A stretch of 64,000 nt of DNA. Origin: Pseudoalteromonas piratica (GTDB lineage Bacteria > Pseudomonadota > Gammaproteobacteria > Enterobacterales > Alteromonadaceae). Below are positions 42,770 through 47,786 of the stretch, piece by piece. Where the stretch lies: NCBI RefSeq assembly GCF_000788395.1, contig NZ_CP009889.1, positions 124,001-188,000 on the forward strand, in the 5' to 3' direction. Each line of letters starts with the position of its first letter. Position 1 is the stretch's first letter. A model generated the notes under the pieces. The model searched no databases. It had not been told where the DNA came from and worked only from the letters and a program-made list of their open reading frames with translations. Made by a program: the position numbers and the translations under genes.

Positions 42770-42955
42770 ACCCTGTTGTGCAAGCTAAGTGAGGGGGCAT
42801 TTACGACACGGCTTTAATTCATCAACATGTTTTGTTTGCTCAAACGGCTTGGCTGGCGTAGTCTTAATGAAAGTGTTGATAATTTAGTCAGAAATCATAG
42901 TTGATACAATTTAAATCACTCTGTTAGAGCTTTCACTACTCAATTGGCTGTACTT

Positions 42956-44197
42956 ATGACGAAACCTGTAACCCAGTTTATTGCACGACAAGCCATTCTT
43001 GATGCATCGAAGCAAATCTTTGCTTATGAGTTGCTGTATCGAGATTCAGACAATAATGCTTTTCCTGTTGGTGTGACCGATGAGCAAGCAACGGGACGAA
43101 TGTTTTTTAACTCACTGATTTTAGTTGGTAAAGATAAGTTAGTTGCTAACCATTGTGCATTTATCAACTTATCTGACACTACGTTGTTACAGGAAATTCC
43201 GCGTTTACTCAAACCCGATAACTTGGTGCTTGAAATTGTTGAACGCTCTCAGAACATTGAGGAATTACTGGCGATTGTAAAAACGCTCAGAAAACAAAAT
43301 TACAAATTTGCGCTTGATGATTACGACAAAGATCCAAGATGGGAGCCTTTGTTACCTTACATGTCTTACGTTAAATTAGAGCTTGAGCACCCGATTTTAA
43401 AAACCACCACCTTAGCTAAGAAGCTAAAGCGTTTGTACCCCAAACTTAAAATTGTTGTTGAACGAATAGAAACCTACGAAGACTTTAACTACTTACAACA
43501 AGCAGGCGTTGATTTGTTTCAAGGCTACTTTTTTGCCAAACCCGAAATGCTAACCCATGGCAATGTTGAACCATCAAAGCTGGTGGTATTTGATTTATTA
43601 AAATCGACCACTCGACCTAACCTCAATTTCAAAGAGATCGAAAGCAAGATTGCCAAAGACTTAAGTCTGACTGCGCGCGTGCTAAAACTGGTTAATGCCC
43701 ATTCCGGCCTTGATAAGCAAGAAATGAAGTCAATTTCGCAGGCTGTGGTGTATTTGGGAGAAGATACCCTTAGGCAGTTTATACGGGTATTAGCACTCAG
43801 TGACTTGGGGGTTGATAAGCCTTCAGAGTTGACCAAATTTGGCCTAATGCGCGCCCAGTTTATGTCGCTATTTCTAGCACCGGGCGGTAAAGAGATGGCC
43901 GAGCAGGGGTACCTGATTGGTTTAATGTCTATTTTAGGCGCTGTATTAGATATGGATCTTAATACCGTTATTAGTGAGTTTTCATTGGATAGTAATTCAA
44001 GCGGGGCACTATTAAATTATGACGGTCTTCTCGGTGGCGCATTAAAAATCGCGATGGCGATTGAAGAAAATAATTGGCAAGCCGCCGAATCCATTTTAGC
44101 AGAAGTAAGACCTGCAACACCCATCTCGAGCATTTTTGAATTGGCAGAGCAAAGCCGCACGTATGCAGATGATGTGTTTGCAGTTGTATCTGGGTAA
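42956..44197 (+). CDS. EAL-HDOD signalling protein (CdgJ-like)
   Basis: A 413-residue cytoplasmic protein with an EAL-type domain (about 5-200) and a HDOD domain (about 205-395), the plan of CdgJ in Vibrio. The EAL motif reads FAYELLYRDSD rather than EALLR, and the later motifs read INLSD, LEIVERS, LDDYDKDPRW and VVERIET. Most metal-binding acidic residues are kept but DDFG has become DDYD, so phosphodiesterase activity is possible but not certain. HDOD domains lack the HD catalytic pair and mediate protein contacts. The frame opens at a TTG (42944); the ATG at 42956 is preferred. Confidence 0.9.
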   Translation: MTKPVTQFIARQAILDASKQIFAYELLYRDSDNNAFPVGVTDEQATGRMFFNSLILVGKDKLVANHCAFINLSDTTLLQEIPRLLKPDNLVLEIVERSQNIEELLAIVKTLRKQNYKFALDDYDKDPRWEPLLPYMSYVKLELEHPILKTTTLAKKLKRLYPKLKIVVERIETYEDFNYLQQAGVDLFQGYFFAKPEMLTHGNVEPSKLVVFDLLKSTTRPNLNFKEIESKIAKDLSLTARVLKLVNAHSGLDKQEMKSISQAVVYLGEDTLRQFIRVLALSDLGVDKPSELTKFGLMRAQFMSLFLAPGGKEMAEQGYLIGLMSILGAVLDMDLNTVISEFSLDSNSSGALLNYDGLLGGALKIAMAIEENNWQAAESILAEVRPATPISSIFELAEQSRTYADDVFAVVSG

Positions 44198-44349
44198 GAA
44201 GGCTTAGAATTCGCGCCATAAAACGTTAAAGAATCGGTTTTAAACTGCTCAAGTGGAATAAAGGCCGCTTTTCCACCCCATTTAATTTTTGATATAGCAT
44301 TTAGCCATATTTGTCTTTGCTTCTAACATCTTACAAAGATTAGAAGCAA

Positions 44350-44513
44350 TCATAACGCGGTTTCGTTGTAACTTGATCTGAGTTTAGCAGTGACCGATGG
44401 AACCAAGCCTTATGGATAAATTATTACTCAAGGCTACTTTATGCTAGTTACCTTAAGGCAGCTAAATGACAAATACTTGAGGTCGATTGCAGCGCCTTAT
44501 TATGCCGTTATTC
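44350..44513 (-). other. attC-like site of cassette 1 (DinB-like gene)
   Basis: On the minus strand it starts with GAATAACGGC, which contains the DinB-like gene's TAA stop, and ends at CGCGTTATGA. At 164 bases it is longer than the others, and the pairing of its ends is weaker. It forms the near boundary of the cassette cluster. Confidence 0.4.
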
Positions 44514-45035
44514 ACTGGGTATAAGCGCCAATAGATCAGTTTCACCAACATCAATGCCAGATTGAAAAAGAATTGTAGTTACTTGCCCTCTATGATGCGT
44601 TTGATGATTAAATAAGTGCTGGATAATAAAGCCAAGATTTTTTGTAAACTTATTGCCTTTGGTATTGATGTAGTCTAACTCGCTCAAGATTGATTCTTCC
44701 GAAATCTCATTAATGAAATTAATTATGGCTTCATCAATAACTTTTCTAGATTGAGCCAAAGACTCTAAATCTGGATGAACAATCTCACTCAAAGAAACCG
44801 GATCAGCAAATTTCTTCATCAGTTTAAGCGATTCAAAACTATCTGGGTGATTAGATATGCGTTTAAGCCAAATAATGTCACCGACCAAAATATGATTAAG
44901 GGTACCAATAATTGAACTGAAATAGGCTCCCTTATCTTTCGATAGGTCTTCGGGGTCGAGCTTATTGGCAGAATCATAGATTTTTTGATTGATCCACAAA
45001 TTATAGTTGGCTAATAACTCAAAGTTTGATTTCAC
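44508..45035 (-). CDS. DinB-family protein (cassette 1)
   Basis: A 175-residue four-helix protein of the DinB/YfiT fold. The metal-binding histidines are visible in GTLNHILVGDIIWLKR and in FNHQTHHRGQVTTIL. DinB relatives include thiol-dependent S-transferases; the role here is unknown. The frame extends further upstream, but that part would lie inside the neighbouring attC site. The GTG at 45035 is preceded by GGAGAG and starts VKSNFELLANYNLWINQ, the normal N-terminus of the fold. The stop codon sits inside the first core of its attC site. Confidence 0.85.
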   Translation of the reverse strand: MKSNFELLANYNLWINQKIYDSANKLDPEDLSKDKGAYFSSIIGTLNHILVGDIIWLKRISNHPDSFESLKLMKKFADPVSLSEIVHPDLESLAQSRKVIDEAIINFINEISEESILSELDYINTKGNKFTKNLGFIIQHLFNHQTHHRGQVTTILFQSGIDVGETDLLALIPSE

Positions 45036-45064
45036 TAAATATACTCTCCAAGGGCATAAAGCCC

Positions 45065-45140
45065 GCATAACTAGCTAATAAAGCTTGGCTAAAATTAGCA
45101 ACCAAGAAGCACAGCCAAGCGTTTTGATATGGGTATTACA
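45065..45140 (-). other. attC-like site of cassette 2
   Basis: On the minus strand it runs from the TAATACCC at the end of the frameshifted gene to TAGTTATGC. The middle reads CAAAACGCTTGGCTGTGC and GCTAATTTTAGCCAAGC, closely matching the attC at 46190. The outer core near the stop codon is degenerate. Confidence 0.6.
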
Positions 45141-45677
45141 TCACAGCCGAGCTAAGAGCAATTTGATAGCTACCAGTTGTTTGATAAGTTGCGCTAAGAA
45201 TAATATTAACTTTCTTACCCTCTTTTGATTGCCCTGTTACATTGAATGATTTTAGTTCAGTTTTTCCAGCAAAATTGGGGACTTTGCTAGGTGAAAAAGA
45301 CCAACCAACGTTTTTATTTATTCTGGCAAGGTTAACATTAACCTCTGAAATGAATTTGCCTGCATTGGCTTTTTTGACAAAAACAGTACAGACTCCATTT
45401 TTTGAAAAGTAATTGCATATTGACCATTTGGTGCTGTGAAAGACCATGCTTTCCCTTTATTGCCATTTAAAAATTGATCTGCGAATTTGGGGGTTAATTG
45501 ATTGATCCCTTTTTTTTGGAACAGATTGGATAAAGTTCTTTCATCTCCAGCATGTCTAACGCATGTTGCAAATGAAAAATTAGCTGCAAATTTTTCAATT
45601 GAAGCATAAGCTGGTTTGATAAAAGTTAAAGTGGTTAACATTAAAACGGATAACAGAGGTAACTGGGTTAACTTCAT
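45136..45677 (-). pseudogene. Secreted protein gene with frameshift (cassette 2)
   Basis: Two overlapping frames together encode one protein of about 180 residues: signal peptide (ending in KPAYA), then SIEKFAANFSFATCVRHAGD, FTAPNGQYAITFQK, then in the next frame NGVCTVFVKKANAGKF and finally SYQIALSSAVM. The frames meet at a run of six A residues (45398-45403 on the minus strand). One extra A would restore a single ORF. It is either a true frameshift mutation, a slippage-prone or phase-variable site, or a sequencing error. AAGGAA lies upstream of the ATG. Function is unknown. Confidence 0.75.
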
Positions 45678-45700
45678 TGTTGGTCGATTCCTTGATTTAC

Positions 45701-45787
45701 ATATAACGCTTTGCTAAGCGGTGAGCGTTAGCGAGTCCAGTGGAGGCCGTCTTTTGGCCGGAACGATGCTTGAGCAACTTGTTAGAA
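45701..45787 (-). other. attC-like site of cassette 3
   Basis: On the minus strand it begins TTCTAACAAGTTGCTCAAGC and ends CGCTTAGCAAAGCGTTATAT. The two ends pair over some 17 positions with a few unpaired bases, the standard attC form, and the middle contains a further CCGGCCAAAAGACGGCC hairpin. It is the clearest site by its outer cores. Confidence 0.75.
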
Positions 45788-45790
45788 GTT

Positions 45791-46180
45791 TTAGTTTGCA
45801 AAGAACGCCCTTACTGTTTTAGCAATGTTTTCGGTTTGGCTTGCATCTAAGCCAAGGGTGACATTTGAACCCCAGACTTCGGGGCCATCAAATTCACTGA
45901 TTTTTATGTTCAAGGTCACGTGCCCAAGAGCATCTGATGTAGCAGATATTGCAAACTCACCTTCGATTGATGCCCACTCTTGAACACCTTGCCAACCTTT
46001 CCATTCTTTTGCGATGAATGAGAATAGATTAACCAAGAATTCGCAGTCAGTGTAACCCCAAACACGTTTCCTAAGCTTAACCGCTGGCGACTCATAGAGC
46101 ACAGTGAAGTAATCAGCCTCTCTTTCGCAGAAAGTAAGTGTTGCTGATGTATTTCCTGATTTAATGACTGCTGTATCCAT
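45791..46180 (-). CDS. Cassette protein of unknown function (cassette 3)
   Basis: A 129-residue soluble protein starting MDTAVIKSGNTSATLTFCE. It is rich in beta-type segments and aromatic residues (YFTVLYESPAVKLRKRVWGY, EWKGWQGVQEWASIEGEF) and has no signal peptide. Longer starts would run into the attC site at 46190, which supports the ATG at 46180. I do not recognise the family; a small beta-sandwich or immunity-like fold is possible but not shown. It is one of the single-gene cassettes. Confidence 0.75.
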   Translation of the reverse strand: MDTAVIKSGNTSATLTFCEREADYFTVLYESPAVKLRKRVWGYTDCEFLVNLFSFIAKEWKGWQGVQEWASIEGEFAISATSDALGHVTLNIKISEFDGPEVWGSNVTLGLDASQTENIAKTVRAFFAN

Positions 46181-46189
46181 ACTCTTTAC

Positions 46190-46292
46190 TTCTAACGCCG
46201 CCATATGGGGCGAAAAAATGCTTAGCTAACATTAGCGAAGAATGAGCGCAAGCCAAGCGTTTTGCGTCCCTGCCATAATGGCTTTGTTATAC
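46190..46292 (-). other. attC-like site of cassette 4
   Basis: On the minus strand it begins GTATAACAAAGCCATTATGG and ends CCATATGGCGGCGTTAGAA. The ends pair as an imperfect stem (AACAAAGCCAT with AACGCCGCCAT read on the opposite strand). The stop codon of the cassette gene lies within the first core (GTATAAC). The middle shares CAAAACGCTTGGCT with the site at 45065. Confidence 0.8.
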
Positions 46293-46511
46293 GTTTTGTA
46301 ACTCAGTTAACAGATTATCAAGAGCTGGTTTTATATTGCTTTCAACAGAATTCATATTTAGAGCATTTAAGAGATATTCGCTAACTAATGCGCGTTTTTC
46401 AGTTGGAATATCGCTTATAGTTTTAGTTGATAGATCTAAATTTAACTTAGTTGCAGACTCAGCATCTATAAAATGCTCTTCTGGTAGAGCTAAAAATTGC
46501 TTCAAATTCAT
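46287..46511 (-). CDS. Small cassette protein of unknown function (cassette 4)
   Basis: A 74-residue acidic, mainly helical protein starting MNLKQFLALPEEHFIDAES. GAGGAAG lies a few bases before the ATG. There is no signal peptide or membrane segment. The TAA stop is embedded in the first core of its attC site, as with the DinB-like gene. The family is not recognised. Its size and position are typical of integron cassette genes. Confidence 0.65.
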   Translation of the reverse strand: MNLKQFLALPEEHFIDAESATKLNLDLSTKTISDIPTEKRALVSEYLLNALNMNSVESNIKPALDNLLTELQNV

Positions 46512-46630
46512 ATTTTAACTTCCTCGGTACCAATTTTGAGAAACGTATAACAGCTTATTAGTGCGCATTTCGATTTAAGGAAGTTATTCACAACCTAAAA
46601 TTGCCAGACCAATAAGTAATTTTATTTAAT

Positions 46631-46652
46631 ATTATCAGTAGATTATCAGTAG
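46631..46652. repeat. Tandem 11-base repeat, two copies
   Basis: ATTATCAGTAG is present twice in direct tandem. A related word ATCAGTAGATTA recurs at 46761. Confidence 0.8.
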
Positions 46653-46680
46653 TTTATTGCCCTAGCAATTTATAATTTGG

Positions 46681-46793
46681 TTTAGATAATCGAGTCATCA
46701 CTTAATCGCGCAATTAGAAGACCGTTATGTAATGTTACTCTTAAGTATTTACCCATTTAAATCAGTAGATTACATTTTTTATTTAGATAATCG
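46681..46793. repeat. Spaced direct repeat TTTAGATAATCG
   Basis: The 12-base word TTTAGATAATCG occurs at 46681-46692 and again at 46782-46793 in the same orientation. Confidence 0.75.
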
Positions 46794-46904
46794 CGCCAAA
46801 AAAATTTATATAACGTGCCATGTTCATAAGCAAAAGTGGATGTTTGATTGGGTAATATGCTGTTGAGGTTAGTTTGAACAATCACCAGTATTGTTCATTA
46901 CTTC

Positions 46905-47786
46905 TCAGCGCTGTTTTAAAACGGGTAACACTTCTGCTATTTCACTATCTAACATATCCAGTACACTCGCGAAGCCATGCTTTGGCTGCCAACCAAACTT
47001 GGCTTGTGCAGCTGATGAGTCATACACGCGGTCTAAACTTGTTGGCAAACGCCAACCTCTTTGTTTAAACGCTGATGTTATCTCTGGGCACTTTTCTTTT
47101 ATGACTTCACTTGCATGATTGTAAAGGTGTTCGCAGTCATTTTGATTAAATGGTGTAAACCCAGAAATAATGAAACGTTTAAAGCCGTTTAATCGTTTAT
47201 CTATGGCACATGCATGCGCACTTGCGACATCACGCACATCTATACCGCGAGTAAGGCGATAGATTGCCATTAAGTCAGCGGGTTCGGGAAAACATCGAGA
47301 CATTTGTAATACGGTAACTGGAAGATTGAAGAGCTTTGAAATTTCATTCAGCTTGTTTTCTGCAAGTATTTTACTTTTATGATAGATAGACTTAGGTTGA
47401 GGCTCAACTTGCTCCGTAATCCAACTGGTGTCACCTTCAGAGGATGAAGCATAACCATAAAGTGCGGTTGTACTGGTAAAAACAAAGTGCTTAATGCCTG
47501 CTTTGATGCCAGCTAAGGCTAGCTTTTCGGTTGCATCGACATTGATGGTTAGAAACTCTTTATCAGCTATTAGCCCAACATGGGGTGCATGAAGTGCCGC
47601 GGTATGAACAATAACGTCCACACTTTCAAGTGCTTTAGAAATTAATTCGCCATCGCAAATATCACCGATAAGGTCTACCGTTGAGCAAGGGGTTTTATCT
47701 AAACCTACTACATCATGATCTCTCATTAATTTGATATAAATAGCACGCCCGACTCTACCTGCAGAACCTGTTACCAATATTTTCAT
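46905..47786 (-). CDS. NAD-dependent epimerase/dehydratase-family protein
   Basis: A 293-residue extended short-chain dehydrogenase. The Rossmann motif GSAGRVGR lies at residues 7-14, and the active-site Tyr/Lys pair is in SIYHKSKILAE with Thr/Ser in FTSTTALYGY. The C-terminal half ends in FGWQPKHGFASVLDMLDSE, typical of nucleotide-sugar epimerase relatives. No other sugar-nucleotide gene is nearby, so the substrate is unknown. It lies 44 bases downstream of the EamA gene on the same strand and could be cotranscribed. Confidence 0.88.
   Translation of the reverse strand: MKILVTGSAGRVGRAIYIKLMRDHDVVGLDKTPCSTVDLIGDICDGELISKALESVDVIVHTAALHAPHVGLIADKEFLTINVDATEKLALAGIKAGIKHFVFTSTTALYGYASSSEGDTSWITEQVEPQPKSIYHKSKILAENKLNEISKLFNLPVTVLQMSRCFPEPADLMAIYRLTRGIDVRDVASAHACAIDKRLNGFKRFIISGFTPFNQNDCEHLYNHASEVIKEKCPEITSAFKQRGWRLPTSLDRVYDSSAAQAKFGWQPKHGFASVLDMLDSEIAEVLPVLKQR

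Follow-up and report, generated by a model that had tools for sequence, protein, structure and literature searches.

The window (i.e., the whole stretch of 64,000 nucleotides of Pseudoalteromonas piratica DNA that was analysed) lies on contig C2 (1.62 Mb) of a host genome, G000, which consists of two contigs and 4.8 Mb. A cluster of gene cassettes runs along its minus strand from the crossover point of an attI site, between 46551 and 46550, down to about 44440, in the order attI, a 74-aa gene, a DUF6228 gene, a broken gene and a DinB gene. The attC sites were searched with R1, a covariance model trained on 10 attCs of intI-linked arrays from this genome (C1) and from the sister genome G099, the attCs of the window being excluded. 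The features are as follows.

46822..46888 (end approximate), minus strand: left arm, common to other intI-less copies of the module and absent from the intI-linked copy
46548..46821, minus strand: attI module of family A (promoter-side region and attI) without intI, recognised by homology to the intI-linked attI of G062:C85
46549..46551, minus strand: attI recombination core G/TT, crossover between 46551 and 46550; homology to the sister species resumes at 46547-46548
46287..46511, minus strand: gene of cassette 1, 74 aa, no Pfam match at E 0.1
46188-46294, minus strand: attC1, R1 92.7 bits, E 5.2e-21
45791..46180, minus strand: gene of cassette 2, DUF6228 (PF19739, E 1.3e-23); the start at 46180 is our own reading
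45699-45789, minus strand: attC2, R1 31.9 bits, E 4.9e-5
45136..45677, minus strand: cassette 3, broken gene in two overlapping frames, 45677-45318 (119 aa) and 45447-45136 (103 aa)
45052-45143, minus strand: attC3, first box degenerate, R1 35.3 bits, E 6.5e-6
45060, minus strand: substituted core base before the DinB cassette, T in G000, G in G096 (GTT) and C in G099
44508..45035, minus strand: DinB-family gene of the last cassette (PF05163, E 5.6e-24); the GTG start at 45035 is our own reading
44350..44514, minus strand: claimed fourth attC, unsupported; no R1 match, and the flank of G062 reaches about 44430-44440

As the earlier note had described, the genes point in one direction and are separated by attC sites. 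Its count of four genes does not stand for four intact ones: cassette 3 holds a gene split between two overlapping frames, each of which was searched separately, and the break (window 45136-45677) may be a sequencing error or a pseudogene. The stop codons of the first and last genes do lie in RYYYAAC-like boxes (GTATAAC and GAATAAC), in agreement with the proposal that stops fall in attC cores. The listed ORF of cassette 2 begins at 46204, ahead of the cassette boundary, and that of the DinB gene at 45068. The DUF6228 gene is present in 2 of the 108 genus genomes. With regard to a cassette promoter (Pc), no sigma-70-like site was found by consensus in 44150-46950, where shuffles gave a mean of 9.0; a consensus scan cannot exclude a promoter, and the apparent depletion against shuffles is recorded as an observation. 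No Rfam family reached its gathering score across the window, and an alpha_tmRNA match at 45506-45678, which appeared at a lax threshold with 18.6 bits against a gathering score of 50, was taken as chance.

In the whole 64 kb, R1 gave only three matches at E<=1, all of them on the minus strand, namely attC1, attC2 and attC3. The scores thus did not fall below threshold for most sites: three of the four claimed after the genes were found, and the one at 44350-44514 was not. Since G062, which has no DinB gene at this locus, aligns with the flank next to the EAL-HDOD gene up to about 44430-44440, most of 44350-44514 is flank, and the right boundary of the cluster lies at about 44440 rather than at the 44350 given previously; that delimitation (44350..46551) also missed the attI module at 46548-46821. 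The shared internal words seen in two sites were confirmed, with 78% identity over 51 nt. That the sites might be chance inverted repeats between ordinary genes has some material behind it, in that the fold z-scores of the four claimed stretches against shuffles are unremarkable (-1.1, -1.2, -0.2 and -0.8), so that folding alone does not discriminate, and a core-pair scan is full of false pairs. Against this, R1 finds only these sites in 64 kb, with a best E of 5.2e-21, and the differences between species break at the cores, which leaves this explanation with a negligible probability. That is to say, the support for the attCs comes from the trained model and from the comparison between species, not from folding. 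The core-pair scan, which was home-made, was dropped for its many false pairs, and the covariance model was used instead.

With the fourth attC absent, and an R1 attC adjoining 1 of 27 DinB homologues, it is the left boundary by itself that argues for the DinB gene being a cassette. One DinB homologue (48% identity; G084:C9:442727-443248, locus L091) lies about 270 nt from an intI, in the position of a first cassette, but without an R1 match for an attC.

The stretch that precedes the first gene of the cluster terminates in TAACTTCCTTAAATCGAAATGCGCACTAATAAGCTG/TTA, and G062:C85 has the same stretch ahead of an intI-linked array. Over 276 nt the attI module is 75.7% identical to the spacer between intI and the first cassette of G062:C85, and the window attI and this intI-linked attI are identical in at least the last 37 nt of the core. 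The shared part ends before the LexA-like box of intI is reached. Upstream of the core, the window shares about 340 nt with the intI-less copy L158 and 275 nt with the intI-linked L072. The window cluster therefore has an attI and no intI: no TIGR02249 match lies on contig C2, all 7 matches being on C1. Together with the three attCs, this makes it a cluster of attC sites lacking an integrase (CALIN) in the formal sense, as had been proposed. Among the parts of a complete integron, the attI ahead of the first cassette is present here, and an intI adjoining the attI is not.

The earlier note had considered integration away from an integron as one origin of such a cluster, and integration at attG-like genomic sites has been reported (described in the available parts of PMC12444791 and PMC12901181). 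At this locus, the acceptor is a homologue of intI-linked attIs over 276 nt and not unrelated DNA, which contradicts that origin and makes it highly improbable. The reports of attG integration (Loot et al. 2024, as conveyed by citing papers) resemble the present case in having cassettes outside an integron and an integrase at a distance; as far as those papers convey it, attG is neither attI nor attC, whereas the acceptor here is an attI.

The integrase gene that the note had suggested looking for does exist elsewhere in the genome, intact, at C1:2434488-2435426 (TIGR02249, 397.8 bits, cut-off 265). Its product is closest in the PDB to IntI4 (2A3V, E 9.5e-82), the Vibrio cholerae protein, and the catalytic motifs are aligned. 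The gene has a CTGT-N8-ACAG box, LexA-like by consensus, and an adjoining array; its attI belongs to family D. An intI match at E<=1e-60 was obtained in 87 of the 108 genus genomes, and in 82 of these it exceeds the cut-off. The IntIs of family A are 56-57% identical to the resident one. The family A intI of G062 is shortened (it covers 1-281 of 315 positions, on a 3.5 kb contig); in G079:C12, where the adjoining attI is again of family A, the intI is of full length. In the spacers between intI and attI of L068, L070, L071, L254 and L009, a family-specific word recurs in inverted form near both ends, e.g., CGACCCAATGGGTCG and CGACCCATTGGGTCG.

The same locus is found in two sister species. With G099 the flanks are 96% identical at the DNA level and the module shows a gap of about 80 nt; with G096 the flank identities are 91% and 95%. 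Both flanks and the last (DinB) cassette are kept in both, the DinB protein being 96-97% identical, while all the cassettes next to attI differ: between attI and DinB there are three cassettes in G000, two others in G099 and one other in G096. Among these proximal cassettes, G000 and G099 share one 42-nt piece of an attC, and the other pairs share nothing at E<=1e-5; the attC of the G096 proximal cassette gives no R1 match. Next to attI the sequences become homologous again at 46547-46548, and next to DinB, in the comparison with G096, at 45059, so the breaks coincide with recombination cores. The genes are accordingly not strictly conserved among relatives, since the DUF6228 gene occurs in 2 of 108 genomes and the proximal cassettes differ in both sister species. 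In summary, the cassette content at this locus has changed after the split of the three species. The G of the core is the base at which crossover takes place, so with this G replaced in front of the DinB cassette, the latter may be fixed in place; it would have stayed there because the core G was lost. As to the flanks, the EAL-HDOD gene on one side (42944-44197) lies on the 1.6 Mb contig in G000 and G099 and on the large contig in G041, and the epimerase gene on the other side (46905-47786) lies on the small contig in G041, so that the platform may stand where relocated DNA was joined.

The chief alternative to an exchange of cassettes is differential loss, starting from a longer array. In this view, a complete integron at this place first lost its intI; deletions or homologous recombination then wore down the long array differently in each lineage, with no new insertion. 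An origin of CALINs from degraded integrons has been proposed (in the part of PMC9024848 available), and different cassettes in different species are also what differential loss would predict. Both attC3 and the core before DinB are degenerate, and cassette deletion is seen to occur at L160. However, the ancestor would need at least six proximal cassettes, none of which is now common to any two of the three species. The intI-less attIs present in many copies, moreover, mostly resemble one another more than they resemble the intI-linked copy, a pattern not expected if intI had been lost separately each time. We therefore hold this course of events to be unlikely. Of the decayed array suggested in the earlier note, what stands is the absence of intI here; the multi-copy intI-less attIs and the change of cassettes since the species split do not fit it.

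The attI module of the window is one of many. An exact-pattern scan for the attI core gave 11 stretches in six genomes, all Pseudoalteromonas, and a 360-nt query of the attI region matched in 12 of the 108 genus genomes; the matches in G013 and G049, which cover about 40 nt and do not lie at the attI end, were taken as chance and left out. Family A thus counts 38 copies in 10 of the 108 genomes, and 2 copies lie within 5 kb of an intI (E<=1e-60). The fetched copies diverge right after the core, two of them having CTGTAA instead of CTGTTA, and in 22 of 26 an R1 attC (E<=0.01) follows within 1.5 kb downstream on the right strand; at L116, L118, L130 and L131 no R1 attC was found in that distance. 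Module A has no match in the plasmid or phage collections.

Within the host genome, R1 recognises at least 31 attCs in at least 12 clusters by our own grouping, three of those scored being single-site; these counts are lower bounds, with 150 first-look candidates scored. Among the clusters scored, 10 of 11 without intI open with an attI module at E<=1e-5, and four families are represented:

Family A: the window, C2:540212 and C2:1120765
Family B: C1:216372 and C2:53120
Family C: C2:206008 and C2:852315
Family D (the family of the resident intI): C2:423859, C1:2551264 and C1:304481

The eleventh, C2:1454957, has the left-end word (see below) only, and no module. In G099, G041, G077 and G079, 14 of 18 further intI-less clusters, chosen from among those listed, have an upstream module at E<=1e-4, although at L237 and L256 the match is in short pieces only, and at L248 the module lies 2.7 kb ahead of the first attC; L244, L250, L251 and L255 have none at this threshold. 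As a control, 450 kb of other sequence from these genomes were searched; three matches fell on the resident intI-linked attI with its LexA-like box, because the control locus L010 overlaps the resident attI, and one further match is 27 nt long (E 0.003). The attC scan also covered control loci, with no site at L008, L010, L011, L065 and L067 and one among the 27 loci L079-L105. On its main replicon, G041 carries a large array (G041:C1:2595478-2622283; locus L242, G041:C1:2618001-2629000) that has no intI match, and a family E attI module stands ahead of its first attC (L242:5259-5115), i.e., it is a large intI-less array with an attI.

In most families, two intI-less copies have longer stretches in common, and are more nearly identical in them, than an intI-less copy and the intI-linked one. 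For family D, intI-less pairs share 399-418 nt at 87-94%, and with the intI-linked copy 230-278 nt at 81-84%; for family B, the values are 181-562 nt at 80-92% and 171-179 nt at 73-80%, respectively. There are two exceptions. The two intI-less copies of family F share 197 nt at 87% with each other and 209-218 nt at 90% with the intI-linked copy, and both retain the CTGT-N8-ACAG box. In family A, L157 and L166 match the intI-linked copy at 92-94% over 126 nt, and the window copy at 82-85%.

In addition, a left-end word, GAGCGAANARCRGYCRTTSA, recurs upstream of the modules of several families. In 878 kb, 21 of its 27 matches lie within 350 nt upstream of a module, a count that includes the source units and same-locus pairs of two species; the word was defined after inspecting alignments of several families. 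A weight matrix derived from five units only, three of family D and two of family B, was run on 52 loci without those units. Of its 12 best matches, 8 are located upstream of a module of another family, where position alone would give about 0.15 (18,936 of 1,468,054 strand positions); this is not a blind test, because the units were chosen after those alignments. The left end of the window's own copy is not among the left-end matches. A left-end word common to several families suggests a common way of spreading.

It also speaks for the second rival, the replacement of whole units, in which attI and its cassettes are inserted or replaced as a block in the manner of a transposable element, and the exchange of single cassettes is minor. 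Five more loci, each present in two or three species, were compared besides the window locus, and the attI itself has changed at 2 of the 6 shared loci, where whole units may have been replaced. At the locus of L200 it belongs to family B in G000 and to family C in G062 and G099, and at that of L206 to family D in G000 and G062 and to family A in G099, the flanks being conserved at both. These family switches favour block replacement, as does the presence of two modules at some loci (L156, L161, L167 and L207). At the window locus, however, the changed cassettes lie between a conserved attI module and a conserved DinB cassette, and around the window cluster no right end, left-right repeat pair, inverted pair or target duplication was found. 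Whole-unit replacement thus seems to us improbable, and rather more so than passive decay. Integrons mobilised by flanking MITE-like elements show that integron parts can be spread by non-autonomous units; these are bracketed on both sides, whereas around the window cluster no such pair was found.

Among 14 loci, repeat pairs flank the unit at L200 and L206 only, and three others gave shorter matches. Next to attI units at L200, L206, L204, L161, L167, L159 and L063 there is a dispersed repeat of 80-300 nt, which at L200 and L206 stands on both sides in inverted order. It may carry the units, or the units may favour its vicinity; the window locus gave no match to it, and many of the matches obtained are situated elsewhere. 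Second attI modules, of the same or another family and tandem-like, were seen at L156:7505, L161:5324/6199/9575, L167:9351 and L207:8841. An empty site for L156 was not recognisable in three relatives, where the left flank is too diverged.

At other shared loci it is the cassettes that differ. L157 and L166 have the attI in common, and their cassettes share nothing; L161 and L169 agree over about 600 nt following attI, beyond which they differ by insertions. L160 was considered as an empty attI and rejected, being instead a deletion, between AATAAGCT-like repeats, of a cassette present in L168. The intI-less G000 locus L205 holds a cassette, about 240 nt between two attCs, that has counterparts of 90-91% identity in the intI-linked arrays of G093, G041 and G043, so that platforms with and without intI share one supply of cassettes; L205 is the only one of 12 G000 cassette regions that matched the intI-linked arrays compared beyond the size of an attC.

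Taken together, the locus is an integron platform without integrase, one of a set dispersed in the genome. The probable reading is that attI units are dispersed without intI and that their cassettes are exchanged by an integrase acting in trans, the exchange being deduced from sequence comparison. An IntI made elsewhere would insert and excise cassettes at this attI, and the candidates are the resident IntI of C1, whose own attI is of family D, or a family A IntI that was present earlier. Given the 56-57% identity of these IntIs, either IntI would tolerate foreign attIs, or the exchanges would date from a time when another IntI was present; that the resident IntI acts on a family A attI would be a guess. 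The attI modules themselves would multiply through genomes as intI-less units. A broader formulation, about which we are more hesitant and which we put at somewhat below an even chance, is a distributed integron of Pseudoalteromonas, i.e., non-autonomous, intI-less attI units with a common left end that have multiplied on both replicons and serve as many parallel entry sites for cassettes, with one or a few integrases acting on them in trans.

Compared with the CALINs and SALINs defined with IntegronFinder (PMC9024848, PMC9229058), the cluster is alike in having attC cassettes without a neighbouring intI, scattered over a genome with an intI elsewhere; it differs in opening with an attI module, since the available parts of those sources describe no attI at CALINs. 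According to the part of PMC9024848 available, the standard program does not detect attI outside class 1, and scattered CALINs and SALINs are described in the accessible text of PMC9229058 and PMC12444791 without attI at them. The CALINs of Xanthomonas (PMC12444791) are likewise recurrent intI-less clusters at the same loci across species, but in the portion at hand their attI is not described, and they are read as the past activity of the ilvD integron. The only precedent found for a CALIN with its own attI is the Shewanella prophage M16-3, where, as far as the available text of PMC9892861 goes, one genome holds a complete integron and an intI-less array with the same attI, and the printed attI end, GCGCACTAATAAAATGTT, resembles the attI end here. 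As reported in that text, it is one case in one prophage, whereas here there are many copies, several attI families and both replicons. Dispersed attIs were not found described in the literature, which was mostly judged by titles and the openings of abstracts, with subscription journals mostly outside.

CALINs are common, and their proposed origins are decay or integration away from an integron, while most of the intI-less clusters examined here open with an attI. If these attIs were used in trans, a genome could capture genes at many points and not at a single one, and a further point would arise whenever a unit of a few hundred bases was duplicated. The recurrence of intI-less entry sites with other genes in this genome and its relatives suggests a capture system spread over many places. 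In the intI-linked array L055 (G093:C10), one cassette stands in three similar copies, and it also occurs in the arrays of G041 and G043 and in L205.
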